This document shows positions 27,105 through 47,841 of a stretch of 64,000 bases of DNA, in pieces; positions within the stretch are counted from its first letter, which is position 1; each line of letters begins with the position of its first letter. The DNA lies in NCBI RefSeq assembly GCF_016722895.1, contig NZ_JAEQNA010000002.1:1-64000 (forward strand), written 5' to 3'. Below the pieces are notes generated by a model. It made no database searches. It was not told the DNA's origin and was given only the letters and a program-made list of their open reading frames with translations. The stretch comes from Ramlibacter aurantiacus (GTDB lineage Bacteria; Pseudomonadota; Gammaproteobacteria; Burkholderiales; Burkholderiaceae_C). The translations under genes were made by a program, and so were the position numbers.

Positions 27105-27381
27105 AGCCCTGTGGACGGCCGCGGCGGTGCTGCTCTTCACCGTGGCGGCCAGCCTGTGGCGGATCTGGCGCGGGCCCACCGGCGCCGACCGGATGATGGG
27201 CGCTCAACTGAGCGGCACCGCCGGTGTCGGCGTCCTGATGGTGCTGTCGGCGGTGTCGGGCGACGAGGCGGTACTCGACGTCGCCCTGGTCCTGGCGCTG
27301 CTGGCCGCGACGGCCGCCGTGGCCTTCGTCAAGGCGGCCAGCCGCGACGGAGCCGGCGACCCCGAGGAGGAGCAGCCGTGA
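27094..27381 (+). CDS. mrpF: Mrp-type antiporter subunit F
   Basis: A 95-residue protein with three hydrophobic helices and the WRIWRGPTGADRMMG segment typical of MrpF/MnhF (MbhB). Its small size and position directly after MrpE fit the family. It overlaps both neighbours (11 bases with mrpE and 4 with mrpG). Confidence 0.85.
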   Translation: MPPEALWTAAAVLLFTVAASLWRIWRGPTGADRMMGAQLSGTAGVGVLMVLSAVSGDEAVLDVALVLALLAATAAVAFVKAASRDGAGDPEEEQP

Positions 27382-27686
27382 ACGGATGGCTCTCGATCGC
27401 TGCGCTCGTGCTGGTGGGGGTCGGCCTGCTGTTCTTCGTCGCCGGCACGGTGGGACTGCTGCGCTTTCCCGATCCGCACAGCCGGTTGCATGCGCTGACC
27501 AAGGCCGACAACCTGGGGCTGGGGTTCGTCGCGATCGGCCTGGCCTTGCACGCCCCGGGTCCGTGGCAAGCGTTCAAGCTGCTGCTGGTGTGGGCACTGG
27601 CGCTGCTGGCGGCCGCCACCGCGGCGCAGCTGGTGGCGCGCTCGGCGCTGGTCAGTCCGCAGGACGAGGAGGACCCCGCGCCATGA
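27378..27686 (+). CDS. mrpG: Mrp-type antiporter subunit G
   Basis: A 102-residue three-helix protein with FFVAGTVGLLRFPDPHSRLH and KADNLG, the MrpG/MnhG (MbhC) signature. The start is a GTG whose last bases form the mrpF stop (GTGA). The mrpG stop in turn overlaps the next ATG, so translation is chained through the operon. Confidence 0.85.
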   Translation: MNGWLSIAALVLVGVGLLFFVAGTVGLLRFPDPHSRLHALTKADNLGLGFVAIGLALHAPGPWQAFKLLLVWALALLAAATAAQLVARSALVSPQDEEDPAP

Positions 27687-28609: not shown

Positions 28610-28929
28610 GCACCGCAACGGTCTTCGGCCTGGCCGGGGCGGCGCTGATCGCCATCGGCGTCTACGGCCTGATGGTGCGCATGCACCTGCTGCGGCTGGT
28701 GATCGGCTTCAACATGGTGGGCAGCGGTATCTTCCTGCTGTTCGGCAGCCTGGCGTCCCGCGGCCCGCAGGCCATGCCCGACCCGGTGCCGCTGGCCATG
28801 GTCATCACCGGCATCGTGGTGTCGCTGGCGGCGAGTGCGCTGGCGCTGGCACTGGCCGTGCGGCTGCACGAAGACACGGGCGCCACGCGGCTGCCGGAAG
28901 AGGACGGGGATGCCGCCGTGGATCACTGA
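28606..28929 (+). CDS. mrpC: Mrp-type antiporter subunit C (NuoK-like)
   Basis: A 107-residue three-helix protein homologous to NuoK, MrpC and MbhG, with GVYGLMVRMHLLRLVIGFNM and DPVPLAMVITGIVVSLA, where a buried charged residue supports proton transfer. Overlaps the preceding gene by 4 bases and the next by 20. Confidence 0.87.
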   Translation: MSTATVFGLAGAALIAIGVYGLMVRMHLLRLVIGFNMVGSGIFLLFGSLASRGPQAMPDPVPLAMVITGIVVSLAASALALALAVRLHEDTGATRLPEEDGDAAVDH

Positions 28930-30412
28930 CTGGACGCAGCCGGGCGTGCCCTGGGCCGCGCTGGCCATCGTGGGGCCCCTGGCCATGGCACTGGCGGCGG
29001 CCCTGTGGCCGGTGCTGGCACGCGCGCTCGTCTGGCCCGCCGGCCTGGCGAACGTGGCCGTCGCCGCGCTGGCGTGCGCGCAGGTGTGGCAGCACGGCGC
29101 CATCGAACTGGCGGTGGGCGGCTGGCGGCCGCCCCTGGGCATCAGCCTGCGGCTCGACGGACTCGCCGGCGCCATGCTGCTGGTGGCGTCGCTGGTGTCG
29201 CTGGCGGCCCTGGTCTTCGCGCGGGCCGGGTTGGCCGAAGGGCCGGCCCGCCAGGAGGCGGCGTTCTGGCCGCTGGCGTTCTGCATCCTCGCGGCGCTGC
29301 ACGCCAGCCTGCTCGGCGCCGACCTGTTCAACCTGTACGTGGCGCTGGAGTTGCTCACCGTGTCGGCGGTGGCCCTGGTGGCGCTGGAGGGGACGCCAGC
29401 GGCACTGGCGGCGGCACTGCGCTACCTGTTCGTGGCGCTCGCGGGCTCGCTCGCCTACCTGCTGGGCGTGGCGCTGCTCTACGCACGCAGCGGCACGCTG
29501 GACCTGCACGTCCTGCGGGCCATCCCCTTGCAGGGCGGCGGCGAGTTCGACCTGTTGCTGGCCGTGGCGCTGATCACCACCGGGCTGCTGGCCAAGGGCG
29601 CGCTGTTCCCGCTGCACGGCTGGCTGGCGCCGGCCCACGCGGCGGCCCCCGCGCCCGCCAGTGCGCTGCTGTCGGCACTGGTGGTGAAGGCGCCGATCGT
29701 GATCCTGCTGCGCGTGTGGTTCGAGGCGCTGCCCGGCCTGCCCACCCCGTCGTTCGCGCAGCTGGTGGGGGCTCTCGGCGCGGCCGCCATCCTGCTCGGG
29801 TCGCTGCTGGCGCTGCGCGAAGAGCGCCTGAAGCGGCTGGTCGCGTACTCCACGGTGGCCCAGCTGGGCTATGTGCTGCTGGTGTTTCCGCTGGGTGCGG
29901 CGGCGGCACGGGATCACGAGTGGGCGGCCGCCGCCTGGACCGGCGCGGCCTTCCACCTGATGGCCCACGCGCTGGCCAAGGCGGCGATGTTCCTGTCGGC
30001 CGGCGCGATGTTGCAGGGCCTGGGCCACGACCGCATCGACGGCATGGCCGGCGTCGGCGGCGCGATGCCGGTGTCGGCGTTCGCGTTCGCGCTGGCGGCG
30101 GTGTCGCTGATGGGGCTGCCGCCTTCGGGCGGCTTCACCGGCAAATACCTGCTGCTCACGGCGGCCCTGGGCAGCGGCCAGTGGTGGTGGGCGGCGGTGA
30201 TCCTGCTGGGCGGCCTGCTGGCTGCCGCCTACCTGTTCCGGCCCCTGTCCTGCTTCATGGCCGATGCGCGGCCTGCCCTGCACTCGCCGGTGCCGTTGGG
30301 GCGGCAGGTCATCGCGCTGGTCCTGGCCCTGGGGGCGATCGGGCTGGGCCTGTTGTCGGCGGCGCCTGCACGGCTGCTGGCGCCGCACTGGGCCGGCGAG
30401 GTGGCGCTGTGA
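28910..30412 (+). CDS. Mrp-type antiporter subunit D (NuoL/M/N-like), copy 1
   Basis: A 500-residue proton-translocating subunit with about 14 helices. Key charged residues are seen in LYVALELLTVSAVALV (Glu of TM5), LAKGALFPLHGWLAPAHAAA (Lys of TM7) and REERLKRLVAYSTVAQLGY. This is the first of three large antiporter-type subunits in the operon. The start ATG 28910 (MPPWITDW) lies inside mrpC, a 20-base overlap. Confidence 0.87.
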   Translation: MPPWITDWTQPGVPWAALAIVGPLAMALAAALWPVLARALVWPAGLANVAVAALACAQVWQHGAIELAVGGWRPPLGISLRLDGLAGAMLLVASLVSLAALVFARAGLAEGPARQEAAFWPLAFCILAALHASLLGADLFNLYVALELLTVSAVALVALEGTPAALAAALRYLFVALAGSLAYLLGVALLYARSGTLDLHVLRAIPLQGGGEFDLLLAVALITTGLLAKGALFPLHGWLAPAHAAAPAPASALLSALVVKAPIVILLRVWFEALPGLPTPSFAQLVGALGAAAILLGSLLALREERLKRLVAYSTVAQLGYVLLVFPLGAAAARDHEWAAAAWTGAAFHLMAHALAKAAMFLSAGAMLQGLGHDRIDGMAGVGGAMPVSAFAFALAAVSLMGLPPSGGFTGKYLLLTAALGSGQWWWAAVILLGGLLAAAYLFRPLSCFMADARPALHSPVPLGRQVIALVLALGAIGLGLLSAAPARLLAPHWAGEVAL

Positions 30413-31878
30413 ACGCCTGGCTGCCGCTGGCGACCATCGGCACGTCGCTGTTCGCGGCGCTGGTGATCTTCCTGCTGCCCGAGCGCCGGGTCCGCACCCG
30501 CACGGTCCTCAACCTGGGCGCTGCGCTGGCCAAGCTGACCCTGGTGGGCGTGATGTTGTGGGGCGTGGCCGGTGGCGAGTCGTACGAGGCGCGGCTGCGG
30601 CTGGTGCCGGGGCTGGACCTGCTGCTGCGGGTGGACGCCCTGTCGCTGTTGTTCGTCACGCTCTCGGTGGGGCTGTGGCTGCTCACCACCATCTACGCCA
30701 TCAGCTACCTGGGCAAGGGGCCGAACCTCTCGCGCTTCTTCGGCTTCTTCAGCCTGTGCGTGGCCGCCACCACCGGGGTGGCGCTGGCCGGCACGCTGGT
30801 GACTTTCTTCATCTTCTACGAGCTGCTCACGCTGGCGACCTGGCCGCTGGTGGTGCACAAGGGCGATGCCGCCTCGCTGGCCGCGGGCCGCCGCTACCTG
30901 GCCTACACCATGAGCGGCAGCGCGCTGCTGCTGGCCGGCATCGTCGGCCTGGAGGGGCAGACCGGGCCGATCGAGTTCGTGCGCCAAGGCAGCCTTCACG
31001 AAGGCGATGCGCAGTCGCTGCGCTGGATCTTCGCCCTGATGGTCGGCGGCCTGGGGGTGAAGGCCGCGCTGGTGCCGCTGCACGGCTGGCTGCCCGCGGC
31101 CATGGTGGCGCCGGCGCCGGTCAGCGCGCTGCTGCACGCGGTGGCCGTGGTCAAGGCCGGCGCCTTCGGCATCGTGCGCGTGATCTACGACGTGTTCGGC
31201 ATCGACCTGGTGGAACGCCTGGGCCTGGGGCTGCCGCTGGCGGTGCTGGCCAGCGTCACCATCCTCTGGGGCTCGGTGCGGGCGCTGCAGCAGGCCGACA
31301 TCAAGCGGCGGCTGGCGTTCTCCACCGTGAGCCAGGTCTCCTACATCGTGCTGGGCGCGGCGCTGTTCGGCCCCTATGCGACGGTGGGGGGACTGGTGCA
31401 CCTGGTGCACCAGGGACTGATGAAGATCACGTTGTTCTTCTGCGCCGGCGTGCTGGCCGAGCGCATCGGGGTGACGCAGGTGCAGCAGCTGGATGGGGCG
31501 GGCCGGCGCATGCCGTTGACCATGGTGGCCTTCAGCATCGGGGCGCTGGGGATGATCGGCGTGCCGCCGGTGGCCGGCTTCGTGAGCAAGTGGTACCTGG
31601 GCATCGGCGGCCTGCAGGCGGGGCAGCCGTGGGTGATCGCCGTGCTCGCCGCCAGCAGCCTGCTCAACGCGGCGTACTTCCTGCCGCTGCTGCACCGCGT
31701 CTGGTTCTGCCCGTCGGTGGAGGACACGCCGCCGCGTGCCGAAACGGGGGCGCTCGGCATGGTGGGGCCGGCCCTGGCGACCGCGATCGCCAGCCTGGGG
31801 GCGGGCGCGCTGGCCGGGACGCCCTGGAGCCCCCTCGCGTGGGCCAGGCTCATCGTGGAGCGCACGTACTCGCCATGA
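30409..31878 (+). CDS. Mrp-type antiporter large subunit (NuoL/M/N-like), copy 2
   Basis: A 489-residue membrane protein with about 14 helices. FFIFYELLTLATWPLVVHK carries the TM5 Glu, and [20 protein letters not shown] the TM7 Lys; QQADIKRRLAFSTVSQVSY follows. Closest in feel to MbhH/NuoM types. It starts with a GTG overlapping the copy 1 stop (GTGA) and ends overlapping copy 3. Confidence 0.87.
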   Translation: MNAWLPLATIGTSLFAALVIFLLPERRVRTRTVLNLGAALAKLTLVGVMLWGVAGGESYEARLRLVPGLDLLLRVDALSLLFVTLSVGLWLLTTIYAISYLGKGPNLSRFFGFFSLCVAATTGVALAGTLVTFFIFYELLTLATWPLVVHKGDAASLAAGRRYLAYTMSGSALLLAGIVGLEGQTGPIEFVRQGSLHEGDAQSLRWIFALMVGGLGVKAALVPLHGWLPAAMVAPAPVSALLHAVAVVKAGAFGIVRVIYDVFGIDLVERLGLGLPLAVLASVTILWGSVRALQQADIKRRLAFSTVSQVSYIVLGAALFGPYATVGGLVHLVHQGLMKITLFFCAGVLAERIGVTQVQQLDGAGRRMPLTMVAFSIGALGMIGVPPVAGFVSKWYLGIGGLQAGQPWVIAVLAASSLLNAAYFLPLLHRVWFCPSVEDTPPRAETGALGMVGPALATAIASLGAGALAGTPWSPLAWARLIVERTYSP

Positions 31879-33551
31879 TGCGCTGGCACACCTTCCTGAT
31901 CGCCGCCACGGTGCTGGTGCCGCTGCTGCTGGCCGCGGCCAGTGCCGTGGCCAGGCAGCCCAGGCGGCTGCTGCCGTGGGGGGGCGCGCCGGGCCTGCTC
32001 TGTGCGTTGCTGGTCCCATCCGGCAGCGAGGTGGCCATGCCACAGGCCCTGCTGGGCGCCGCCCTGCGCCTGGATGCCCTGGGCGCCGCATTCCTGGGCC
32101 TTTGCGCGTTCATCTGGACCTGCGCCGCCCTGTATGGCCGCAGCTACGTCGCCGGCCAGCCGCACGAGCGCATGTTCTGCGGGTTCTGGCAGCTCACGTT
32201 GGCGGGCAGCCTCGGTGTGTGCCTGGCGGCGGACGCGATCACGTTCTACCTGGCCTTCGCCACCGTCTCGCTGCCGGCCTATGTCCTGGTCATCCACGAC
32301 CGCGCTCCGGGCAGCCTGCGCGCCGGGCGCGTCTACATCGCCCTGGCCGTGCTCGGCGAAATGGCTTTGCTGATGGGGCTCATGCTGTCGGTCGACGCGG
32401 CTGGCTCCATCGGCATTGAGGCGGTGCGGCAGGCGCTGGCGCAGGCACCCTGGCGCGATGCCGCGGTGCTGGGACTGCTGGTGGGGCTGGGCCTGAAGTG
32501 CGGGCTGGTGCCGCTGCATGGCTGGCTCCCGCTGGCCCACTCGGCGGCGCCGGTGCCCGCCTCGGCGGTCCTCAGCGGCGCCATCGTCAAGGCCGGGCTG
32601 ATCGGGCTCATGCGGTTCCTGCCGGCCGACCAGGCCCTGCCGGTCTGGCCGGAGGTGCTGACGTGGACCGGCCTGCTCACCGCCTATGCGGCCGTGCTGC
32701 TGGGGCTTGCGCAGCAGCTGCCGAAGGCGGTGCTGGCCTATTCGACGATGAGCCAGATGGGGCTGATGGTGGCCGTGCTGGGGGCGGCGCTGGGCGCGCC
32801 GGACGGGCCCGCGGCCGGCTACCTCGCGCTGACCCTGCTGGCGCTGCAGCACGGGCTGGCCAAGGGCGGCCTGTTCCTGTCGGCGGGCCTGCTGGCGCGG
32901 GAGTCGGGACGGGTGCGGCTGGCGGTGCTGGCCGCGGCCGCCCTGATGGGCGCGGTCATCGCTGGCCTGCCGCTCAGTGGCGGCGCCATCGCCAAGCTGG
33001 CCACCAAGGAGCCGCTGGGCACCGGTTGGGCCGCGACGCTGGCCGGCTGGTCGGCGGCCGGCACGGCGCTGCTGATGCTGCGCTTTCTTTTCCTGGAGAA
33101 GGCCGGGCCGGCCGGGGCGGCACAGCCCGCACCCGCGGCCATGCGGGTCGCGTTCGGGGTGATGGTCGTGGCTGCCCTGGCGGCGCCGTGGTGGTTCTCG
33201 CTCGCACGGGGTGGGCCGACGCTGGCGGAACTCGGGTCGGGATCCAAGCTGTGGAGCGCGGCCTGGCCCCTGCTGCTGGCGACCGCGCTGGCGCTCGTCG
33301 CCGGCCGTTCGCGCGGGGGCATGCCGGCACCCCCGGTGGGCGACCTGGCCGCCTGGGGCGAGTCGGCCTGGGCGGCCTGGTGGCGACGGGATGCCGAGGC
33401 CGGGCCCGGCGCTGCCCCGCCCCCGTCCGGTTGGGGCGGGGGGGCGGGCTGGACGGTGCTGGAAAGGCTGGCGCGGCCGCTGGCGGGTTGGCCAGCGGTC
33501 GCGGCCGGGTTGGGCCTGTCCGTGCTCGTTTTCGTCCTCGCGCTGTCTTGA
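31875..33551 (+). CDS. Mrp-type antiporter large subunit (NuoL/M/N-like), copy 3
   Basis: A 558-residue membrane protein, the most diverged of the three. The TM5 region reads [20 protein letters not shown] and lacks the usual Glu. The TM7 region [19 protein letters not shown] keeps the Lys. A Gly/Pro/Ala-rich cytoplasmic stretch (about 505-535) precedes a last helix. Loss of the TM5 acid suggests altered or no proton pumping in this subunit. It overlaps copy 2 by 4 bases and closes the operon, with fumC 76 bases later. Confidence 0.82.
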
Positions 33552-33627
33552 TGGACGAGCGGCGGCGAAATCGCCACGCCCCCCCGCGGGCTCTGCTACG
33601 GTTGTCCGTCTTCCCATGGGAGGCCGC

Positions 33628-35022
33628 ATGACGACCCGCATCGAACACGACACCTTCGGGCCCATCGAGGTGCCGGCAGACCGGCTCTGGGGCGCACAGA
33701 CGCAGCGCTCGCTGCAGCATTTCGCGATCTCGGGCGAGCGCCAGCCGCGCGAGATCATCCGGGCGCTGGTGCAGGTCAAGCGGGCCTCGGCGGTCGTGAA
33801 CCGCCAGCTCGGGCTGCTGGACGAGCGCAAAGCCTCGGCCATCGCCGCCGCCGCCGACGAGGTGCTGGCGGGCGGCCACGAGGCGGAGTTCCCGCTGGTG
33901 GTCTGGCAGACCGGCTCGGGCACGCAGACCAACATGAACGTCAACGAGGTGCTGGCCAACCGCGCGAGCGAGCTCCTGGGCGGTTCGCGTGGGGCTGGGC
34001 GGCAGGTGCATCCCAACGACGACGTGAACCGCAGCCAGTCGTCCAACGACGTCTTTCCGACGGCCATGCATGTCGCCGCGGTGGTGGCCATCCGGGAGCA
34101 GGTGCTGCCGGCGCTGGAGGGCTTGCGCTCGACGCTGCAGGCGAAATCGGGCGAGTTCGACGACATCGTGAAGATCGGCCGCACCCACCTCCAGGACGCA
34201 ACACCGCTGACGCTCGGCCAGGAGTTCTCGGGCTACGTCGCCCAGCTCGAACAGGCGCAGCGGCACCTGGAGGCGAGCTTGCCGGCGCTGTATGAACTGG
34301 CCCTGGGCGGCACCGCGGTGGGCACCGGCCTGAACGCGCCGCCAGGTTATGGGCAGCAGGTGGCGGTCGAGATCGCCCGCCTGACCGGGCACCCCTTCGT
34401 GAGCGCGCCCAACAAGTTCGCCGTGATGGCGGCGGCCGATGCGCTGGTGCATGCGCACGGGGCCTTCAAGACGCTGGCGGCCAGCCTGATGAAGATCGCC
34501 AACGACATCCGCTGGCTGGCCAGCGGTCCACGCAGCGGCATCGGCGAGCTGCGCATCCCCGAGAACGAACCGGGCTCGTCGATCATGCCGGGGAAGGTGA
34601 ACCCCACCCAGAGCGAGGCGGTCACCATGCTGTGCTGCCAGGTGTTCGGCAACGACGTGGCCATCAACATCGGCGGCGCCTCGGGCAATTTCGAGCTCAA
34701 CGTCTTCCGACCCATGATGGCGCACAACTTCCAACAGAGCGCGAGGCTGCTGGCCGACGGCATGGCCAGCTTCGATCATCACTGCGCCCGTGGCATCGAG
34801 GCCGACCGCGCGCGCATCGGTGAACTGGTCGGGCGCTCGCTCATGCTGGTGACGGCCCTCAACCCGCATATCGGCTACGACAAGGCGGCCGAGATCGCCA
34901 AGAAGGCGCACCGGGAAGGCAGCTCGCTGCGAGAGGCGGCGCTCGCATCGGGCCATGTCACGGCCAAGCAGTTCGACGAGTGGGTCCAGCCGGTTCGCAT
35001 GGTGGGACGCCCAGCCGATTGA
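33628..35022 (+). CDS. fumC: fumarate hydratase, class II
   Basis: A 464-residue iron-free, heat-stable fumarase of the aspartase/fumarase superfamily. The signature [16 protein letters not shown] is intact and contains the catalytic Ser loop. [14 protein letters not shown] and [15 protein letters not shown] form the other active-site regions. GGGAGG-type GGGAGGCC precedes ATG 33628. A shorter upstream ATG (33616) is possible. It complements the class I enzyme at 17.3 kb, probably under oxidative or iron-poor conditions. Confidence 0.95.
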
Positions 35023-37222: not shown

Positions 37223-37348
37223 CGCTATGCTTGTTCTCGATCAAAGCGCGGCATTCTAGGGGGCTGTCCAACCGCGAGCGCCTCGGTAAACTGGCCGCAG
37301 GAGGCGCGGCGAGTCCTTGCCTGCCCGATCCCTGACCCCGGAGACAAC

Positions 37349-39334
<1,986 letters not shown>

Positions 39335-39582
39335 TCGCCTTGCTGCCCGGTTCGAGGGCGGCACCGGCAGGGTTCGGCCATCGGCAAGTTGCAGGCCGGT
39401 GATCGGGAGATCACCGGGCCCTGGACGAGCTCGCCCGGGCGGCACGCGGGCAGCTCGACGATCTCCATCCCTCTCTCCGCCGCCTTCGGCTCGCCGAGCC
39501 GGTTCCGCGATGCCGCACGAGGCATTCGACAGTCGAGCCGCTTGGGACGACGTCTCTTGGCGACATGCCAATCCGGGGCGCG

Positions 39583-39596
39583 AAGTGGATGCACTT
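39583..39596. promoter_or_regulatory. operator copy 1 of the catabolic island
   Basis: AAGTGGATGCACTT, with arms AAGTG and CACTT that are inverted repeats around GATG. It lies about 140 bases upstream of the paired copies, a spacing that could allow looping. Confidence 0.6.
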
Positions 39597-39703
39597 TGGA
39601 TGAGCGAAATCGAGTATCGAGCGCGGCAAGGTGCGCCAATGTTTGGTATATCCCCTATGTTTCATGGGGGATCGACGGTGGATCCCTGTCGGGCCGAACC
39701 CGG

Positions 39704-39731
39704 TTGACACGCTGAAATGGATGCATAAGAT
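39704..39731 (+). promoter_or_regulatory. candidate promoter of the Bug receptor gene
   Basis: A perfect TTGACA (39704-39709) and TAAGAT (39726-39731) are 16 bases apart. Operator copies 2 and 3 cover the spacer, the -10 and the expected start site, which fits repression by a bound regulator. Confidence 0.65.
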
Positions 39732-39747
39732 GAAAGTGCATCCACTT
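39715..39747. promoter_or_regulatory. operator copies 2 and 3
   Basis: AAATGGATGCATAA (39715-39728) and AAGTGCATCCACTT (39734-39747) have centres 19 bases apart, about two helical turns. They overlap the -10 and likely start of the receptor gene. The same two-site arrangement occurs before the aldolase gene. Confidence 0.65.
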
Positions 39748-39780
39748 TGGTGCGTCACTCGCTTATAGGGGAATCCATCT

Positions 39781-40746
39781 ATGAAGCCGCTGTCTGGCTT
39801 GTGTGCAGGGCTGCTGGTCATTGCGGGGTTGCTGCCCGCGCATGCCACCGAGTTCCCGACCAAACCGATCCGGTTCGTGGTGCCGTTCACGCCTGGCACG
39901 GGCATGGATCGGATCGCGCGCCTGGTCGCTGAGGACCTGAAAAACCAGTGGGGACAACCGGTCACCGTCGAGAACCGCACGGGCGCCGCCGGTCACGTGG
40001 GTGCGCAACTCGCGGCCAAGGCGCCGGCGGACGGGCACACCGTGCTGGTCACGGCCAGCAACATCTCCATCACGGCCACGCTGGTGAAGAGTGCCGGCTT
40101 CGACGCCATGAGCGAATTGAAGCCGCTGCTGATCGCCGCGTACGGCGACTCGTCGCTGGTGGTGGGCGGCAAGTCCAAGTTCAACAACTTGGCCGACGTG
40201 ATGGCGGCGGCCCGCAGCAACCCGGGCGGCATGCGATTCGCGACCCCGGGCAGCGGCTCCCCTATGCATCTTGCGATGGCCGAGTTCGAAGACGCCGCGC
40301 AGCTGAAATTCCTTCACATCCCCTACAAGGGCACGGCGCCCGCGGTGACGGACCTGATCGCCGGCCACGTGGATGTCATGTTCGTCGCGAGCCACACCGT
40401 CAAGCCCTTCGTCGATTCGGGGCAGCTGAAGCTGATCGCGGTCGGCGCGGCCAAGCGCAACCCGCTGATTTCGGCGACGCCGACCTTCGCCGAGGCCGGC
40501 GTCCCGAACGTGTCGACCGAGGCCTGGTACGGCTTCATGATCCCGCGCGACGTTCCCGAACCGGTTCGCAAGAAGCTGTTCGATGGCATCAGCAGCGCGC
40601 TGGACAAGCCGTCCATCAAGTCGGACCTGCAGGCGACCGGGCTGCAGGTGCGGCCCTCGACATCGGAGGAGATGCAGAAGTACGTCCAGGCGGAATTCCG
40701 CCGATACGCGGCCCTCATCGACCGGCACAAGATCACCAATGAGTGA
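39781..40746 (+). CDS. Bug-family tripartite tricarboxylate-type substrate-binding protein
   Basis: A 321-residue periplasmic receptor. The signal peptide ends at ALPAHA-type LLPAHA (about 23). The mature protein has FPTKPIRFVVPFTPGTGMDR and VENRTGAAG, the Bug/TctC ligand-binding signatures. Such receptors bind carboxylates and usually work with TctAB permeases, which are not in the window. It is the first gene of the rightward operon and is probably repressed through the adjacent operator pair. The substrate is likely the acid processed by the oxygenase downstream. Confidence 0.9.
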   Translation: MKPLSGLCAGLLVIAGLLPAHATEFPTKPIRFVVPFTPGTGMDRIARLVAEDLKNQWGQPVTVENRTGAAGHVGAQLAAKAPADGHTVLVTASNISITATLVKSAGFDAMSELKPLLIAAYGDSSLVVGGKSKFNNLADVMAAARSNPGGMRFATPGSGSPMHLAMAEFEDAAQLKFLHIPYKGTAPAVTDLIAGHVDVMFVASHTVKPFVDSGQLKLIAVGAAKRNPLISATPTFAEAGVPNVSTEAWYGFMIPRDVPEPVRKKLFDGISSALDKPSIKSDLQATGLQVRPSTSEEMQKYVQAEFRRYAALIDRHKITNE

Positions 40747-41509
40747 GCGAACCGCTTCAGGGCACGGCATGCAGGAGTTCGATCCGAACGAGTTTTCGCA
40801 GGCCCGGGTCGCCGTCATCGGCGGCCGCCTGGGTACCGGGCCCGCCACCGTGCGCGCTTTCGTCGGTCGCGGCGCGCAGGTCACCGTGGCTGACCTGGCC
40901 CACGCACCGGCGCCACCCGGCTGCGCCATGGAGGGCGCGCGCTACCTGCCGGTCGACATGACGCAGCCCGAGGCCATCGACGACTTCCTCGACCAGGCCC
41001 AGGGGCCGTCGGGCAGGCTGGACGTGCTGGTGCTGATGGCCCCGCCGGTGAAGACGGCCAAGGTCTTCGACATCGAGGATGCGGAGTACCGGCGGGTCAT
41101 CGAGACGGAGCTGCTGCAACCCATCGCCTGGCTGCGAGCGGCGGCCAGGCGGATGGTCCGGCAGCAGTACGGCCGGCTGATCTCCTTTTGCTCGATGTCC
41201 GGGAAGACGGGTGTCCATCCCCACGTGTCCCCGTACGCCGCGGCCAAAGGCGGACTGATCACGTTCTCGCGCGGCCTTGCCGCCGAAATCGCTCCGACCG
41301 GCGTGACGGTGAATGTCATCGCGACGGCCCTGTTCGACGTGCAGGTCGCGGCGATGGACGATGCCTCCGAAGCCGCCAAGGGAATTCCGGTCGGACGGGT
41401 GGGGCGTTCCGCCGAGGCGGCGCACGCGGCCTTGTTTCTGGCTTCGCGCAACGCCGGCTACGTGACGGGTGAGACGTTGAACCTGTCCGGCGGCCGGTTC
41501 ATGGATTGA
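40739..41509 (+). CDS. short-chain dehydrogenase/reductase
   Basis: A 256-residue SDR. The cofactor motif is GGRLGTGPATVRAF rather than the standard TGxxxGxG, and the NNAG position reads LMAPP. The catalytic Tyr/Lys are present in YAAAK, with Ser in FCSMSG. The start at ATG 40739 overlaps the receptor stop by 8 bases; ATG 40769 is an alternative. In aromatic catabolism such enzymes often dehydrogenate the cis-dihydrodiol made by a ring-hydroxylating oxygenase, and the next genes encode one. That role is inferred from context. Confidence 0.82.
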   Translation: MSERTASGHGMQEFDPNEFSQARVAVIGGRLGTGPATVRAFVGRGAQVTVADLAHAPAPPGCAMEGARYLPVDMTQPEAIDDFLDQAQGPSGRLDVLVLMAPPVKTAKVFDIEDAEYRRVIETELLQPIAWLRAAARRMVRQQYGRLISFCSMSGKTGVHPHVSPYAAAKGGLITFSRGLAAEIAPTGVTVNVIATALFDVQVAAMDDASEAAKGIPVGRVGRSAEAAHAALFLASRNAGYVTGETLNLSGGRFMD

Positions 41510-41548
41510 GGCAGGGCCGCCCAGGGGAGGCCCGGAAGGATTTTGGAG

Positions 41549-42877
41549 ATGATGAACAACCAACCCGAAGCGCGGGTGCGGTTCACCCGACAGGAAGAGC
41601 CGCGCTCCGCGCAGATCCTCCAGCGGGACGAGCGCACGTTCCGCGTGCACACCAGTGCGTATACCGACGAGCGCGTCTTCCGCGAGGAGATGGACAAGGT
41701 CTTCGCCAAGACCTGGGTCTACGTGGGCCACGCCAGTGAAATTCCCAAGGCGGGCGACTTCAAGACGTCGCACATCGGACTTCAGCCAGTCGTCGTCTCG
41801 CGTGGCGAGGACGACACCATCCATGTGTTCGTCAATCGCTGCGTGCACCGCGGCGCGGTCCTCACCCGCGATGCGCGCGGGAACGCCACGGAATTCAACT
41901 GCCCGTACCACGGCTGGGTGTATGGCATCGACGGTCGGCTGATCGCCGTGTCCGAGCGGCGCGAGCCCGGCGGCTACTCGGAGAACTTCCGGCAGCCCGA
42001 GGGTTTGTTCAGGCTGCCGCGTGTCGCCACCTATCGCGGCTTCATCTTCGCAAGCTTCAATGCCGACGCGCCCGGGCTGGAAGCCTTCCTGGGTCGCGCC
42101 AGGAGCGTGATCGACCGCAAGCTGAACCTGGCGCCCGGCGGTGAAATCGTATTGCGGTCCAGGCCCTTCGTCGTGCGGTACCAGGGCAACTGGAAGTTCC
42201 AGGCCGAGAACATCGTCGATGCCTACCACTTCCTGCACACCCACAAAGGCTTCGTCAACCTGCAGGCCAGGTTCGGCGACACGACCGGCGACTTCGGGGT
42301 CCACAAGGGCGGATCGGTCAAGGAGATGCGCAAGCTGCGTTTCCAGGGGGCGACCTGGAGCTGCGCCCACGGGCACGGCATGCTCGAGAACCCCTCGAGC
42401 CACCCCGAGACCTACCTCGAGGGAGAGTTCTCGTCCTTCTACGAAGGCATCAGGCGCACGCACGGGGACGAGGAATTCGCCTGGCTGGTGGGCAAGGGCG
42501 CGGTGTCGATCTTCCCCAACGTCGGGATGATCCACCAACAGATCCGGACCTGGCGCCCCATCGCCCCCGACGTGACCGAAGTGACCATCTATCCGTACGA
42601 ACTGAAGGATGCACCGGATGCCTACAACGAGGGCATGCTGCGCAGCCAGGAGCGGTTCTATGGCCCTGCGGGCCACGGCGCTGCCGACGACGTCGACATC
42701 TTCTCGCGCAACCAGCAGGGCCTGCTGGGCAGCGCCGTCGACTGGCTGATCCTCGAGAGGGGCCTGGACACCGACGAGCTGGTCGATGGCGACTGGCGCG
42801 GACTGCCGGCCAGTGAAGCGCCGCAGCGCGCCTTGTGGCGGGCATGGGCACGCCTGATGTGCGAGGAGCAGACATGA
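41549..42877 (+). CDS. Rieske non-heme iron oxygenase, large (alpha) subunit
   Basis: A 442-residue oxygenase subunit. The N-terminal Rieske domain has CVH (Cys98, His100) and CPYH (Cys118, His121). The catalytic domain shows NWKFQAENIVDAYHFLHTH with bridging Asp224 and iron ligands His227 and His232; the third ligand is probably one of Asp380-381 (ADDVDIFSRNQQGL). GGAAGGA precedes ATG 41549; an in-frame TTG at 41543 is less likely. It overlaps the beta subunit gene by 4 bases. It should add O2 across an aromatic ring. No ferredoxin or reductase is nearby. Confidence 0.92.
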   Translation: MMNNQPEARVRFTRQEEPRSAQILQRDERTFRVHTSAYTDERVFREEMDKVFAKTWVYVGHASEIPKAGDFKTSHIGLQPVVVSRGEDDTIHVFVNRCVHRGAVLTRDARGNATEFNCPYHGWVYGIDGRLIAVSERREPGGYSENFRQPEGLFRLPRVATYRGFIFASFNADAPGLEAFLGRARSVIDRKLNLAPGGEIVLRSRPFVVRYQGNWKFQAENIVDAYHFLHTHKGFVNLQARFGDTTGDFGVHKGGSVKEMRKLRFQGATWSCAHGHGMLENPSSHPETYLEGEFSSFYEGIRRTHGDEEFAWLVGKGAVSIFPNVGMIHQQIRTWRPIAPDVTEVTIYPYELKDAPDAYNEGMLRSQERFYGPAGHGAADDVDIFSRNQQGLLGSAVDWLILERGLDTDELVDGDWRGLPASEAPQRALWRAWARLMCEEQT

Positions 42878-43401
42878 TCGGCACGCGCGAGACCGCCTGG
42901 GATCACCCAGGCGCGGACCTGAAGACCATCGAGGCTTTCCTCTACCGGGAGGCGCTGCTGCTGGATCGCTGGGCGCTCGAGGAGTGGTCCGCCCTCTTCA
43001 CGCCGGATGGCGTGTACTGGCTGCCGATCGATGACGAGGCCGACGTGCGCACGAACGTGTCGCTCGTGCGGGATACGCCGGCGCGCCGCGAGGAGCGGGT
43101 GTATCACCTGCTGCACAACAGCTTCCCCGCGCAATCACCGCGCTCGCGCACCCTGCATTTCATCTCGAATGTGCTGGTGACCGGTCGCGCCGACCTTGAG
43201 ATCACGGTCACGTCCAGCCAGCTCACCTACGAGATGCGGACCGGTGACTACTCGCAGCTGGGCCTGGGGGAGATGCGCCCGCTGGTCGCCCAGGTCGAGC
43301 ATCGGCTTCGCATCGGTGAGGGCGGGCTGCGCATTGCCCAGAAAAAGGTGCTGCTGCTCAATCGCGACAGCTGGCACGGCAACCTGACCTTCGTGTTCTG
43401 A
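42874..43401 (+). CDS. Rieske oxygenase small (beta) subunit
   Basis: A 175-residue SnoaL/NTF2-like cone protein of the aromatic-ring-hydroxylating dioxygenase beta family. FLYREALLLDRWALEEWSAL and DGVYWLP with HFISNV are typical. It stabilises an alpha3beta3 hexamer. The ATG overlaps the alpha subunit stop (ATGA). An alpha/beta pair favours benzoate, anthranilate or biphenyl-type oxygenases over the alpha-only phthalate class. Confidence 0.9.
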   Translation: MIGTRETAWDHPGADLKTIEAFLYREALLLDRWALEEWSALFTPDGVYWLPIDDEADVRTNVSLVRDTPARREERVYHLLHNSFPAQSPRSRTLHFISNVLVTGRADLEITVTSSQLTYEMRTGDYSQLGLGEMRPLVAQVEHRLRIGEGGLRIAQKKVLLLNRDSWHGNLTFVF

Positions 43402-43429
43402 GCGCGGGTGGATTCGATTCGCCCGAGCC

Positions 43430-44254
43430 TCACGTGCGCCGGCCCGAGGGCAACTTGGGCTCGGGTGCGTTCGAGGTGGCCATCTTCAACGCGTCCCGCA
43501 CCGCCACAGGTTCGTACCCGGGATCGATGTTGCCGATGACGATCCGGGCGACACGAGCCAGTTGCCGGCTCGAGAGGAAGATGGCCTTGGCCACGTCGCC
43601 CTGCGCGTACGCGTCGACGAGGCCGGCATGTTCCTCGTGCGAGGCGCCGTACGAGTGCAGTGACGCACTGATGCAGGTCCGGCGTGCCCGCTCGGAGCGG
43701 GACCAGCAGCTATCGATCGTCTCCAGGATCATGGGCCCGGCATGCATCACGAGCGCGCGGTGGAAGTGGACGTGGGAGTCGTCCCATTCGGTGCTCGACG
43801 CGGTCCCTGGCGGTGTGTGTGTTTCCAGCTCGTCGAGGGTGCGGCGTATCGCGCGCATCTCGCTGGGTGTGATGCGCGGGACCGTCAGAGCGGTTCCGAG
43901 GGCCTGCACGACGATCCAGGTGGCATAGACGCTATCGACGTCCGCGGGCGTGATCGCCGTCACGCGCACACGATGCTGGTGGTTCGTTTCCACCAGGTTC
44001 TCGGCCTGCAGCAGGCGGAAGGCCTCCCGGACGGGCGTTCGGCTGACCCCCAAGTCGCGGGCGAGGTGAACCTGGTTCAACACCTCGCCGGGGGCGATTT
44101 CGCCAAAGATGATGCGACGGCGCAGGAGTGAATGGACCCGGTGGATGTCCCCGCCAGCGTTCTTTCGCTGGGCGGCGCCCGCCGGTGACGGGTCTTCTTC
44201 GGGCTCGCTCGTAGGGGCCTTGCGATCCCGGTCGATCCGGTTCAGGTCAAGCAT
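43430..44254 (-). CDS. GntR-family (FadR/FCD) transcriptional regulator
   Basis: A 274-residue regulator. The N-terminal winged helix has LGVSRTPVREAFRLLQAENLV as recognition region (about 70-90), and the C-terminal FCD ligand domain has metal-binding-like His in DSHVHFHRALV and SHEEH. It reads leftward, against the oxygenase genes, and shares its promoter region with the aldolase. The six operator copies on both sides make it the obvious local repressor. The ligand is likely the pathway substrate or an intermediate. Confidence 0.9.
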   Translation of the reverse strand: MLDLNRIDRDRKAPTSEPEEDPSPAGAAQRKNAGGDIHRVHSLLRRRIIFGEIAPGEVLNQVHLARDLGVSRTPVREAFRLLQAENLVETNHQHRVRVTAITPADVDSVYATWIVVQALGTALTVPRITPSEMRAIRRTLDELETHTPPGTASSTEWDDSHVHFHRALVMHAGPMILETIDSCWSRSERARRTCISASLHSYGASHEEHAGLVDAYAQGDVAKAIFLSSRQLARVARIVIGNIDPGYEPVAVRDALKMATSNAPEPKLPSGRRT

Positions 44255-44324
44255 ACGAATGGGTGGCAGTTATCGAAGGCCAGTGTACTCCGCGGCCATC
44301 AGGGTCGCCGGTTCATTCGACGTC

Positions 44325-44338
44325 AAATGGATGCATTT
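44325..44338. promoter_or_regulatory. operator copy 4
   Basis: AAATGGATGCATTT has perfect inverted arms AAATG/CATTT around GATG. It lies 71 bases before the gntR start codon and may serve autoregulation. Confidence 0.6.
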
Positions 44339-44390
44339 ACCCCTGATCCATCGGGGGAAATCCATGTGTTCAAAGCGGTTCAGGGGGTTA

Positions 44391-44424
44391 AAGTGCATCC
44401 ACATTCCAAAAGGTGGATGCACTT
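44391..44424. promoter_or_regulatory. operator copies 5 and 6
   Basis: AAGTGCATCCACAT (44391-44404) and AGGTGGATGCACTT (44411-44424) have centres 20 bases apart. Copy 6 ends 21 bases before the aldolase ATG, so it lies in or near the transcription start. Confidence 0.65.
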
Positions 44425-44445
44425 TATGAAGGATATGGGGCAACC

Positions 44446-45246
44446 ATGAAAGCACTGGCGATGCGGGCAGCGTGGGAGCGTGGCGAAACCGTCTTCGGCA
44501 TGTGGGCGGCTTTGCCGTCCGCGTTTTCGGTCGAGCTCATGGCCGCACCGGGTGTGCAGTACGTGTGCGTCGACCAGCAGCACGGCCTGATCGACTACTC
44601 GGACGCCGTGACCATGTACGCCGCCGCCGAGGGGCGAGGGGTGCTGCCGATCACGCGGGTTCCGGCGAACGCACCCTGGATGATCGGCAAGAACCTCGAT
44701 GCGGGCGCCCAGGGTGTCGTCGTTCCGCTGGTGAATACGCGGGAAGAGGCCGAGGCCGCCGTGATGGCCTGCAGGTACCCGCCGCGTGGCATCCGGTCGT
44801 ATGGGCCCATTCGCGCCGCCCTTGTGAGTGATCAGCGCGACGCGGCCAGCCTCGGGGATTCGGTGCTGTGCTTCGTCATGGTCGAGACCCGCCTGGGGCT
44901 CGCGAACATCGACGCCATCGCCAGCACCCCGGGCCTGGATGGCATCTACGTCGGACCGGCGGACTTGGCCCTGGGCCTGGGGCTGCCGCCAGACCTGGAC
45001 AAGACCGAGCCCGAGCACGTCTTGGCGGTCCGCACGATCCTGGAGAGCTGCCAGCGACACCGCATCGTGGCCGGCATCCAGTGTGCATCCGGCCGGTCGG
45101 GCAGGCTCTATGCGGCGCAGGGTTTTCGCCTGGTCACGGTGGGCAAGGATTCGTCGCTCCTGCAGGCCGCCGCGCGCAACGAGATCCGCGTCGCTCGCGG
45201 TGAGGCGGAGCCCAGCCAGAGCCTCGTCCAGGGGGGCTACACGTGA
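44446..45246 (+). CDS. HpcH/HpaI family aldolase
   Basis: A 266-residue class II (metal-dependent) aldolase of the HpcH/HpaI/citrate lyase family. VCVDQQHGLIDYSD holds the catalytic His region, and VETRLGLANID and GIYVGPADLALGLG are metal and phosphate-loop motifs. These enzymes cleave 2-keto-4-hydroxy acids into pyruvate plus an aldehyde, the last step of meta-cleavage routes. ATG 44446 is preceded by GGGG and two operators. The PrpD gene overlaps its stop. Confidence 0.88.
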   Translation: MKALAMRAAWERGETVFGMWAALPSAFSVELMAAPGVQYVCVDQQHGLIDYSDAVTMYAAAEGRGVLPITRVPANAPWMIGKNLDAGAQGVVVPLVNTREEAEAAVMACRYPPRGIRSYGPIRAALVSDQRDAASLGDSVLCFVMVETRLGLANIDAIASTPGLDGIYVGPADLALGLGLPPDLDKTEPEHVLAVRTILESCQRHRIVAGIQCASGRSGRLYAAQGFRLVTVGKDSSLLQAAARNEIRVARGEAEPSQSLVQGGYT

Positions 45247-46673
45247 GCGCGTACCGCCGCGGTGACGCGGTCCTCGAAGCCCTGGCCGCACGGGTGGCAC
45301 GTGCGCCGGCGCAACTTCCCGCCGCCGCGGTCGATGCGGTGGGTCGATGCCTGGTCGACACGCTCGCCGTGTCATTGGGCGCCCTGCAGCACCCCGCAGC
45401 CCGGCTGGCCCGGGCCTATGCACGGCTCAACCAGATGGGCGGTGGTGCCCGCGTGTGGGGTACCCAGCTGGTCGCGTCGATGGACGTCGCGGCGCTGGTC
45501 AATGGCGTGCCTTTGCGCGCGTATGACTACAACGACCTGTACATCGGCAAGTCGGGCGGCCATCCGAGTGATGTCATTCCCGGCCTGATCGCCCTGGCCG
45601 AGGCGCGGCGGAAAACAGGCGAGCAACTGCTGGCCTGCATCGCACTCGCCTACGACGTCAACATGATCTTGCTCGATGAGATCGACATCGAGGCCCATGG
45701 CTGGGATTACCCCAACCTGATCGGCATCGGCGCGACCTGCGCCGCGGCGAAGCTGCTGGGGCTGTCCGAGAAGCAGACGGCCGAGGCACTGGCCATCGCG
45801 GCGGTTTCCCAGCTGGCGTCGGACGAGGTCGAATCAGGCGACCTCAACGAACGCGGTGACCTCACCATGTGGAAGCGCTTCAATGGCAGCCATGCGATCA
45901 GGCACGCCTTGTACTGCGCGACGCTCGCCGAGGTGGGCATCGAAGGGGCCGTCCGGCCGTTCCAGGGCAAGACCGCCTTCCTCTCCAAGTTCGCGATGAG
46001 CCCGGCGGCGGTGCAGGCGCTGGTGCAGAAGCTGCAGGGCCCCGTCGAGCCGGATCGCGCCGCCATGACAACCTTCAAGCGATGGCCGGTGGGATCTCGC
46101 GCGCAAAGTGCCATCCGCGCGGCACTCGCCGTCCGCCAGCGGGTGGGCGATCCGTCCACGATCCGGCAAGTCGTGGTCCGGTGCGACCAGGACGCGTACA
46201 ACCACCTGCTGGCCAGACGCGCCGATCCGTGGAACCCGAGCTCGCGCGAGACGGCCGACCATTCGCTGCCGTACATCGTGGGCAGCTGCCTGCTGGACGG
46301 CAGCCTCGGCGTCGAAAGCTTCGATCCCGAGCGGGTGCGGGCCGATGGCCGGCTCGCCTTCATCAGGAAGGTGGTCACGATCGAGCCCGATGCCGAGCAC
46401 ACGCAGGGCGCCGCACGTGGGTTCCTTGCCAGCGTGGAGGTCGTCACGATGGACGGTGCTCGCCACGTGGAGCCTGCGCAAGCGCCGCCAGGACATCCCA
46501 GCCGACCGTTCACGGCGGCGGACGTGGCGGCGAAATTCCGGGAGAACGTCGAGCCCGTCTACGGCGATGCATCGACGGCCAGGATCCTGGAGCTGGCCCT
46601 GAACATCCATTCGGCGCCGGACGTCTGTGGGCTGACCGCCGCCCTGGTGCTGGACGGAGACGGGCAGGCCTGA
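45243..46673 (+). CDS. MmgE/PrpD family protein
   Basis: A 476-residue member of the 2-methylcitrate dehydratase/cis-aconitate decarboxylase superfamily. DTLAVSLGALQHPAARL, YDYNDLYIGKSGGHPSD and WKRFNGSHAIRHALY carry the conserved regions. It would act on a polycarboxylate, by dehydration or decarboxylation, but no prpB or prpC is present, so propionate use is not the role. It starts with a GTG overlapping the aldolase TGA. It probably processes a cleavage product of this pathway. Confidence 0.87.
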   Translation: MSAYRRGDAVLEALAARVARAPAQLPAAAVDAVGRCLVDTLAVSLGALQHPAARLARAYARLNQMGGGARVWGTQLVASMDVAALVNGVPLRAYDYNDLYIGKSGGHPSDVIPGLIALAEARRKTGEQLLACIALAYDVNMILLDEIDIEAHGWDYPNLIGIGATCAAAKLLGLSEKQTAEALAIAAVSQLASDEVESGDLNERGDLTMWKRFNGSHAIRHALYCATLAEVGIEGAVRPFQGKTAFLSKFAMSPAAVQALVQKLQGPVEPDRAAMTTFKRWPVGSRAQSAIRAALAVRQRVGDPSTIRQVVVRCDQDAYNHLLARRADPWNPSSRETADHSLPYIVGSCLLDGSLGVESFDPERVRADGRLAFIRKVVTIEPDAEHTQGAARGFLASVEVVTMDGARHVEPAQAPPGHPSRPFTAADVAAKFRENVEPVYGDASTARILELALNIHSAPDVCGLTAALVLDGDGQA

Positions 46674-46777
46674 GCACGAGCAGGGCGACGCCACGCCCGA
46701 TGGCTGATGCCTCCCCGCCAGCCCTGCGAAGTGAGCCCCGGCAAGCTTTGCGGCGGCAGCTGCTGAGCTGATCGAGA

Positions 46778-47773
46778 ATGCAGCTGGTCCGGCGGTGGCT
46801 GGACTCACCAGGGGGAGCTATCTTGATTCAGGCGAGGGTCTATCCGGCGTGGTCCGGCGCTTCCGAACGTAGCCTGACATCCGGCCCCGCCGAATCGGCA
46901 GGCGACCCTAGGTTGCTGAACCGGGCTGCGATGGCCCTGGCGCAAGCCGACGCGGGGAGTTGGCTGGTCCGCCACCGAGCACCCGCGCGCCTTGTCCAGC
47001 GGCTCGTCGACTCGGGGCATGTGCGCGCCAGGGGTGGCTGCCTGCGGGTCCAGCATTCCATCGAGCCCCGGGCCCTGCACGAGGTGATCAGCCACCTGCT
47101 GCGCGCCCAGGCGCCGGTCGGGCCCGTGCCGGTTCGCCACCGAACCTTGCTGTTCGGCGCCGTGTACCGCCGCCTGTTCCGGATGGCTGGAGCCGGCCCC
47201 GCGCCGGCCGAGGCGATACGCATCGGATTCGAGGCGCTCGCCGTGTGCCCGATCACCGACGCCCGGGTCTTGATTCCTCTCTTGCGCGAACTGCGCCATG
47301 GGGCGGGGCCGACGGTGTGGCGGCAGCGGCTGGCGAGCTTGGTGGCTGCCTTCTGCGCCGATCCGACGCGCATGCGGGATGCCGTGAGGCACCTCACCCG
47401 GGCTTGCTGCGCGGTCGATGGGCCTCACGACGTGCGCGACGTGCTGCGCGACCTGATCACCCGCAGGCCAGGCGCCGGCGCGGCCGCTGTGGCCGCGGAC
47501 TGGCCGGCGAACCACGCCGCCCTCGAGGCTGGCGTACAGGGGTACTTCCTGGCCTGCGCCGGTCATCCGACGCTGGCCCTCGACATTCGCCAGGAAGCGC
47601 AGGCGCTGGTGGCGGGCCTGGCCCGCATCGAAACGGCCCTCGTGGTGGCCGGTGCGCGCCAGGCGGCCGGGGCGATCGACGAGCAGGCGGTGCAGGTCGA
47701 GCTCCGGGCGTTCGCCGACCGGACGCAGGCAACGATGGCCCCGGGGCCGAACAGCCTGGCGCACTGGGGCTGA
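46778..47773 (+). CDS. hypothetical protein, unrecognised
   Basis: A 331-residue frame with Ala/Arg/Leu-rich helical composition, no signal peptide and no transmembrane helix. I recognise no domain. Two segments look structured: WLVRHRAPARLVQRLVDSGH and ARVLIPLLRELRHGAGPTVW. The N-terminus is uncertain: a TTG at 46823 has a strong GGGGAG 5 bases upstream, and ATG 46931 is a third option. The opposite frame is also open but lacks a plausible start. A strong terminator follows. It may be an orphan acquired with the island to its left. Confidence 0.5.
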   Translation: MQLVRRWLDSPGGAILIQARVYPAWSGASERSLTSGPAESAGDPRLLNRAAMALAQADAGSWLVRHRAPARLVQRLVDSGHVRARGGCLRVQHSIEPRALHEVISHLLRAQAPVGPVPVRHRTLLFGAVYRRLFRMAGAGPAPAEAIRIGFEALAVCPITDARVLIPLLRELRHGAGPTVWRQRLASLVAAFCADPTRMRDAVRHLTRACCAVDGPHDVRDVLRDLITRRPGAGAAAVAADWPANHAALEAGVQGYFLACAGHPTLALDIRQEAQALVAGLARIETALVVAGARQAAGAIDEQAVQVELRAFADRTQATMAPGPNSLAHWG

Positions 47774-47796
47774 GAAAGCCGGCGGTGCCGGCCCAT

Positions 47797-47825
47797 GCAA
47801 AGGGCGCCACGAGGGCGCCCTTTGC
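47797..47825. terminator. bidirectional rho-independent terminator
   Basis: GCAAAGGGCGCC (47797-47808) pairs perfectly with GGCGCCCTTTGC (47814-47825) around a 5-base loop. A run of A on one side and T on the other lets it stop both the rightward hypothetical gene and the leftward cytochrome gene. Confidence 0.85.
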
Positions 47826-47841
47826 GTAGGGAGATGCGGGC

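Follow-up and report, generated by a model that had tools for sequence, protein, structure and literature searches.

The tph clusters of Comamonas E6 are reported to combine genes for the Bug protein TphC, an alpha/beta Rieske dioxygenase and a dihydrodiol dehydrogenase, the membrane genes being located elsewhere (PMC13040137). Here we examined a seven-gene cluster in Ramlibacter aurantiacus, lying in a stretch of 64,000 nucleotides (contig NZ_JAEQNA010000002.1, positions 1 to 64,000; hereafter the window). Like the tph clusters so described, it harbours a Bug gene, an alpha/beta Rieske oxygenase and a dehydrogenase (PMC13040137). On the other hand, its dehydrogenase is a short-chain dehydrogenase/reductase (SDR), whereas a zinc-dependent, decarboxylating dihydrodiol dehydrogenase is described for tph (PMC13040137). 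The window cluster also differs in its GntR/FCD regulator, in its additional HpcH/HpaI and MmgE/PrpD genes, and in having no reductase gene. Our analysis suggests that the cluster was acquired horizontally and works as a self-contained regulon for the catabolism of an aromatic or heteroaromatic carboxylate, with a pyruvate-releasing aldolase as its last enzyme, and we give this class-level statement a probability of about 0.6.

Other known systems resemble the cluster in single components. BenA/XylX, AntA and HcaE, from the benzoate/toluate, anthranilate and phenylpropionate dioxygenases, belong to the same superfamily as the window alpha subunit, which is 29-33% identical to them and forms a separate clade. 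The best NCBIfam profile of the window aldolase is HpaI of the 4-hydroxyphenylacetate meta pathway, with a score below the cut-off; judged by Pfam, the other six genes fall outside the families that we take to make up the remainder of that pathway. PrpD/MmgE, cis-aconitate decarboxylase and iminodisuccinate epimerase have their fold and Pfam domains in common with the window MmgE/PrpD protein, whose scores are far below the cut-offs, and none of the other genes of the 2-methylcitrate cycle is found among the seven. SDR, FAH and HpcH-type enzymes also meet in the L-2,4-diketo-3-deoxyrhamnonate sugar-acid pathway. The FAH-type enzymes of related clusters are kin to the hydrolase of this pathway, just below the cut-off, but the gene is missing from the window cluster and the pathway has no place for a Rieske enzyme.

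Pfam domains and open reading frame (ORF) coordinates confirmed the families and positions that a preliminary description had given for the seven genes. The left arm, on the forward strand, encodes a Bug/TctC-type periplasmic binding protein (39781-40746; PF03401, E 5e-58), an SDR with the S..Y...K motif (40769-41509; PF13561, E 2.7e-36), the Rieske ring-hydroxylating oxygenase alpha subunit (41549-42877; PF00355, PF00848) and its beta subunit (42874-43401; PF00866, E 4.8e-20). The GntR/FCD regulator is encoded on the reverse strand (43430-44254; PF00392, PF07729). The right arm, again on the forward strand, consists of the HpcH/HpaI class II pyruvate aldolase (44446-45246; PF03328, E 2.9e-26) and the MmgE/PrpD family protein (45243-46673; PF03972, E 1e-52; PF19305, E 5.2e-33). 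Both arms had been described as convergent to the regulator; this applies to the left arm, whereas the right arm is divergent from gntR. Four-base overlaps are present between alpha and beta and between the HpcH and MmgE genes. The starts of alpha and HpcH/HpaI are our choice; the ORF list has TTG at 41543 and GTG at 44413, respectively, and the latter would overlap operator site 6 (see below). Among the NCBIfam matches listed (for the SDR, the best 25 of 196), none of the seven proteins reached a cut-off.

We then looked for the same gene set in other Burkholderiales, a check that the preliminary description had called for. Six short peptide patterns, all taken from a single protein, were used to scan 84,980 species, and alpha relatives were detected at 33 loci. 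In thirteen of them (L009-L021) alpha was 54-73% identical to that of the window, depending on the alignment, and in the other 20 it was at most 39% identical. Given the few patterns used, the number of related loci is a lower bound. The thirteen loci span nine genomes: five Pigmentiphaga, two Burkholderiales/Alcaligenaceae, a Pararobbsia and Burkholderia sp. Ax-1724. With the window included, SDR, alpha, beta and MmgE/PrpD genes were present in all 14 loci, HpcH/HpaI and GntR genes in 13 and the Bug gene in 12. As accessory genes, an FAH-type (acylpyruvate-hydrolase-like) hydrolase was found in eight of the 14 loci, a Rieske ferredoxin in seven and a ferredoxin reductase in five; the reductase of L012 has HcaD as its best NCBIfam match, below the cut-off. 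Five gene orders could be distinguished, that of the window and L009 and those of L010-L013, L014, L015-L020 and L021. The set is thus kept together through changing gene order in nine other genomes, with its own regulator and operator, which we regard as strong evidence for a pathway. L021 (Burkholderia sp. Ax-1724) has a MarR gene and, some 2 kb from its set, a gene for an RraA-type aldolase that may replace HpcH. This gene belongs to a group divergent from the cluster (L021:12640-18518) that encodes an MR/MLE enzyme, the RraA-type aldolase, a CoA-transferase, an enoyl-CoA hydratase and a 2-hydroxyacid dehydrogenase.

The shared operators on which the preliminary description relied were also found. 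With the pattern AARTGSATSCAYTT, which was composed after inspection of the window sites, and up to two mismatches, seven matches were obtained in the window against 0.57 expected, and none of 100 shuffles reached seven. Six of the seven are located in the two promoter gaps of the cluster; the seventh lies elsewhere and is weak. In the gap before the left arm, sites 1 (AAGTGGATGCACTT, 39583-39596) and 3 (AAGTGCATCCACTT, 39734-39747) match exactly, and site 2 (AAATGGATGCATAA, 39715-39728), 19 bases before site 3, has two mismatches. The gap before the right arm contains site 4 (AAATGGATGCATTT, 44325-44338), an exact match, and sites 5 (AAGTGCATCCACAT, 44391-44404) and 6 (AGGTGGATGCACTT, 44411-44424), 20 bases apart and with one mismatch each. 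At up to one mismatch, which leaves out site 2, the whole 5.1 Mb genome contains five places, all in these two gaps, against two for the reversed control pattern. The pattern AARTGNATNCAYTT without mismatch occurs at three places in the genome, all at the cluster, and its control at none. A promoter-like TTGACA-16-TAAGAT is present before the left arm (39704-39731, forward strand; one found against a mean of 0.1 in shuffles). Site 2 overlaps its spacer and second hexamer and site 3 follows behind it, an arrangement expected for a repressor. Based on these sequence features, the seven genes very probably form one dedicated regulon, and the operators common to both arms argue that both answer to one inducer.

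The six window sites were turned into a matrix, with which the related loci were scored. For 11 of the 13 loci the top score fell within the promoter gap expected for the locus, the gap making up 1-4% of each locus; the gaps were drawn by hand, and the loci are not independent, as four genomes contribute two copies each and the members of L010-L013, like those of L015-L020, are closely related to one another. The exceptions are L021, without gntR and without a strong site, and L011, in which the best site is outside its gap, before another operon. Operator sites recur in L010-L013 before an operon that encodes a FabK/nitronate-monooxygenase-like flavoprotein together with a type III CoA-transferase, so that in Pigmentiphaga the pathway may include a CoA-thioester step. 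In L010 (11781-14111), and likewise in L011-L013, this operon has two operator copies in front. The same operator also accompanies an MFS gene and another Rieske alpha/beta pair, whose alpha shares 51% identity with that of the window, in Pigmentiphaga litoralis (L009:17440-19378, the MFS gene extending to 20811). By eye, with the spacer counted, the sequence before this operon reads TTGACA-16-TTAGAT. By its operator, it is probably a second operon of the regulon.

Concerning the origin of the cluster, nine congeners had acs, and the seven with enough sequence were compared. In all seven regions, acs adjoins a cytochrome c gene, 69-261 bases separating the ends of the two tblastn hits. In the window they are separated by 8,507 bases, from the stop of acs at 39334 to the 3' end of the cytochrome c gene at 47842. 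The inserted segment corresponds to 39335-47841, its exact ends not being fixed and a few native intergenic bases perhaps included. At E ≤ 1e-90, the alpha gene was present in the host only, that is, in one of 60 genomes of the genus, and similarly in one of 300 genomes of the order and one of 399 of the family, the host being counted each time and the best 3-5 first-look candidates per genome being scored in the two larger samples. On this comparison, the set lies in one insert and was probably acquired horizontally. No exact direct or inverted repeats of at least 12 bases were found between the insert ends, no integrase domain was found in the eight ORFs of the insert that were scanned, and the only tRNA of the window lies at 14364. 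A plasmid collection was searched with the protein sequences of alpha, MmgE, HpcH and the 331-aa ORF described below, and with the DNA of the insert. The best places had below 60% identity or there was no match; therefore no plasmid record in that collection carries the cluster. Both in the window (acs, 37337-39334) and in L009 (5815-7710), the cluster is immediately preceded by a same-strand gene for an acyl-CoA synthetase, which we consider probably a coincidence. Eight flank genes of the window had no match in the other 12 loci, and the two acyl-CoA synthetases are only 39% identical, indicating that the place of insertion is not common to the related loci.

The right part of the insert contains a 331-aa ORF on the forward strand (46778-47773), which may not be a gene. 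Pfam and NCBIfam assign it to no family, and a search of 58 further genomes of the genus (E ≤ 1e-20) gave no relative, nor did the plasmids. Its codon composition is gene-like, and the GC content is 0.725 for 46674-47841 against 0.67 for the cluster. Elsewhere in the window, 26001-34000 is unlike the remainder, with GC at 0.73-0.75 and a strong AT skew (-0.20 to -0.31).

The primary structure of the alpha subunit was then considered. The Rieske CxH...CxxH and the D..H....H iron-site motifs are intact, and the beta gene adjoins. The best NCBIfam profile, benA, gave 243.5 bits against a cut-off of 780.95, so that the protein falls short of BenA benzoate 1,2-dioxygenase; identities were 33% to HcaE, 30% to XylX and 29% to AntA. 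In a tree with characterized Rieske oxygenases, as had been recommended, the alpha subunits of the 14 loci and the second alpha of L009 grouped as a 15-member clade (support 100/99) that excludes XylX, AntA, HcaE and another enzyme from pCAR1; the deeper branching is weak and HcaE is on a long branch. The structural model of alpha (predicted local distance difference test (pLDDT) 83.7) aligned best with alpha3beta3 aromatic dioxygenases, led by toluene and biphenyl dioxygenase (3en1, 1ulj; Z 39.7, root mean square deviation (rmsd) 2.7, 390-395 residues). Terephthalate dioxygenase followed at Z 36-37, salicylate 5-hydroxylase, a monooxygenase, at 35.5, phthalate 3,4-dioxygenase at 33.6, and carnitine and stachydrine enzymes at about 25-31; this list, like that for MmgE/PrpD below, re-aligns the top chains of Foldseek, and other families may be missing from it. 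The window cluster encodes neither a ferredoxin nor a reductase, genes for which are a common, non-essential trait of alpha3beta3-type oxygenases. A group of DLH-type, Rieske alpha/beta, isochorismatase and SDR genes occurs both in L009 (1-4094) and on the plasmid pCAR1 (L063:13117-17652); it may encode an auxin-type pathway.

The aldolase belongs to the HpcH/HpaI superfamily (Pfam 92.6 bits against a gathering score of 25). Its residues H46, R71, E147 and D173, which we take to be catalytic in the family, are invariant in 13 aligned cluster proteins. The best NCBIfam profile, HpaI, scored 153.6 against a cut-off of 368.8 bits, and the protein thus did not reach the level of 4-hydroxy-2-oxoheptanedioate aldolase. 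The FAH protein of L009 matched L-2,4-diketo-3-deoxyrhamnonate hydrolase (8gsr) at E 2.6e-101 and NF053535 with 450 bits against a cut-off of 500. The hydrolase of this name splits a 2,4-dioxo acid to pyruvate and an acid. Taken together, the active-site motifs and the kinship of the aldolase and the FAH-type hydrolase suggest that a late intermediate is a 4-hydroxy-2-oxo or 2,4-dioxo acid.

In the case of the MmgE/PrpD protein, sequence and fold favoured different relatives. Its best NCBIfam matches were PrpD profiles (140.1 bits against a cut-off of 950 and 77.8 against 458), and 2-methylcitrate dehydratase PrpD was thus not reached. With phmmer, iminodisuccinate epimerase (2hp0) led at E 3.1e-23, followed by the decarboxylase at 6.4e-22 and PrpD at 6.2e-21. 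The model (pLDDT 87.0) superimposed on solved family members with Z 37.8-42.4. Here cis-aconitate decarboxylases ranked highest (Z 42.4 for 6r6t, then 41.7 and 41.4), ahead by 0.6-2.2 Z of the dehydratases MmgE (5mux, 40.8) and PrpD (6s62, 40.5) and the epimerase (40.2); these alignments had rmsd 2.6-3.3 over 429-446 residues. The earlier proposal that substrate cleavage gives a polycarboxylate had relied on the membership of this protein in the family, and is not sustained, as sequence and fold leave a dehydratase, a decarboxylase or an epimerase. Our preference is for a hydro-lyase, as such an enzyme would prepare the substrate of the aldolase.

The preliminary description also stated that a ring-cleavage dioxygenase and a CoA ligase were lacking. 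This holds among the Pfam domains of the seven genes, and both absences have to be qualified. As to the CoA step, the same operator precedes the type III CoA-transferase operon in four related loci. As to ring cleavage, 14 tblastn queries, with gentisate-type cupins outside the query set, gave no hit in the window and 12 of the 13 related loci; eight of the queries were automatically chosen host frames, and the host match L084 and three LigB matches were not among them. In L016 an intradiol-type hit lies about 5 kb from the set, obtained with a query (own_L086) that may be an antisense frame, so that the kind of hit is uncertain. The host genome itself contains 11 LigB-family and two intradiol matches. 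One of its operons, with genes for protocatechuate 4,5-dioxygenase and LigK, encodes LigA, a second alpha subunit and LigK above equivalog cut-offs and beta subunits above subfamily cut-offs. The protocatechuate 4,5-dioxygenase and the other LigB-type genes make ring cleavage in trans possible. Rieske-alpha matches in the genome number 27 at E ≤ 1e-3, of which 17 have E < 1e-20, and the aromatic catabolism of the host is apparently rich. The surroundings of other Rieske genes in the host yielded nothing more that bears on the cluster. Host homologues of the relatives' FAH-like and reductase genes occur elsewhere in the genome (56% and 45% identical, a single TGA being present in each of the match frames). 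We considered them as members of the regulon and could not link them to it, the genome-wide operator matches lying only in the cluster.

We propose the following order of reactions, tentatively and at slightly less than even odds. Until it binds the substrate or an early product, GntR would repress both arms. The Bug protein would capture the carboxylate and borrow membrane components encoded elsewhere. The alpha/beta Rieske oxygenase would add two ring hydroxyls, with ferredoxin and reductase supplied by the host (in several relatives they are encoded in the cluster), and the SDR would oxidize the cis-dihydrodiol. The ring would be opened by a host ring-cleavage dioxygenase or through spontaneous hydrolysis of an unstable product. 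MmgE/PrpD, as a hydratase or dehydratase, would then move or remove a hydroxyl to give a 4-hydroxy-2-oxo acid, which HpcH/HpaI would cleave to pyruvate and an aldehyde or oxo acid; in the relatives, the acylpyruvate-hydrolase-like enzyme would be the hydrolytic alternative for the 2,4-dioxo form. A more specific version, which we regard as rather doubtful, dispenses with a ring-cleavage dioxygenase. The Rieske enzyme would dihydroxylate a heteroaromatic dicarboxylate (with, for example, a furan, pyrone or pyridine ring) beside the heteroatom, the resulting hemiketal or hemiaminal would open by itself to a 4-hydroxy-2-oxo dicarboxylate, and MmgE/PrpD, SDR and HpcH/HpaI (FAH in relatives) would lead to pyruvate. 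This would explain that a ring-cleavage gene went unseen, with the queries used, in 13 of the 14 loci, and that the downstream enzymes are of sugar-acid and polycarboxylate kinds.

Several findings weigh against a self-contained regulon of this type. The MmgE/PrpD protein could be a decarboxylase or an epimerase. The fold of alpha gives only the general group and does not separate dioxygenases from monooxygenases, salicylate 5-hydroxylase being close to terephthalate dioxygenase. The window cluster does not include the ferredoxin, reductase and FAH-type hydrolase of its relatives, and may therefore be incomplete or work differently. GntR, HpcH and Bug genes are absent from L021 in the stretch examined, no promoter-like site was found when the right promoter gap of the window was searched, and our scheme has no use for the CoA-transferase operon that the operator precedes in four loci.

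The resemblance of the Bug, alpha/beta and dehydrogenase genes to the tph clusters (PMC13040137) suggests a different scheme, in which the Rieske enzyme and SDR make protocatechuate from a benzene polycarboxylate, and in which, once 4,5-cleavage has taken place, HpcH and MmgE/PrpD take the roles of 4-carboxy-4-hydroxy-2-oxoadipate (CHA) aldolase and 4-oxalomesaconate hydratase. The protocatechuate 4,5-dioxygenase genes of the host agree with this, as does the RraA-type aldolase, of the LigK superfamily, near the L021 cluster. In addition, the oxalomesaconate hydratase of the host could be named by eye only: in L088 we called ORFs LigC-, PmdD- and PmdE-like, and the PmdE-like amidohydrolase has no NCBIfam row at E ≤ 1e-40. 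On the other hand, the host LigK CHA aldolase is well above its cut-off (420.6 against 304.5 bits). If the cluster fed into the 4,5-route of the host, at least HpcH would be redundant, and MmgE as well if the PmdE-like amidohydrolase is the hydratase. A role of HpcH and MmgE as missing steps of protocatechuate 4,5-cleavage is thus weakened by the presence of LigA and LigK above cut-offs, and the two probably act on a product other than that of the host route. Moreover, terephthalate dihydrodiol dehydrogenase is reported to require zinc (PMC13040137), and the window enzyme is an SDR. We regard the scheme as unlikely. Nor do we expect that the aldolase and PrpD-like enzyme attack a carboxylate side chain carried by an aromatic substrate, from which pyruvate would be released together with an aryl aldehyde or acid, with the Rieske enzyme and SDR acting on the ring separately. 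HpcH/HpaI aldolases accept varied aldehydes, which would suit such chemistry, and in most loci the cluster has no associated ring-cleavage gene. Two queries, however, detected no aldehyde dehydrogenase in the 13 related loci, nor did the Pfam-scanned neighbours include one; a gene elsewhere in the genome could serve, but this route appears quite unlikely.

Rieske oxygenases are also reported to act as monooxygenases, desaturases or dealkylases (PMC12445004), and the Bug and PrpD families suit polycarboxylates, so that the alpha/beta enzyme might act in this manner on a non-aromatic polycarboxylate rather than as a ring dioxygenase. This is made improbable by the alpha model, which is nearer to alpha3beta3 aromatic dioxygenases than to the carnitine and stachydrine enzymes, and by the constant SDR partner. 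Finally, the two arms have separate upstream gaps, as would two unrelated operons placed side by side by chance; private operators common to both and the retention of the set through several gene orders make this highly improbable. We thus retain the reading of one catabolic unit under one GntR regulator, as the preliminary description had supposed, on the grounds of the operators, the matrix result in relatives, the insertion and the gene set kept elsewhere.

No description of such a gene set was found in the open PMC literature, in line with the earlier view that the pathway is uncharacterized. The cluster would thus be a catabolic regulon that is, as far as searched, undescribed and assembled from known enzyme families. 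Its operator predicts a regulon that extends in relatives to the CoA-transferase operon and the second Rieske operon, and the Bug and GntR proteins are usable as handles for finding the substrate. If the ring does open without a cleavage dioxygenase, the cluster would represent a new logic for the aerobic breakdown of ring acids.

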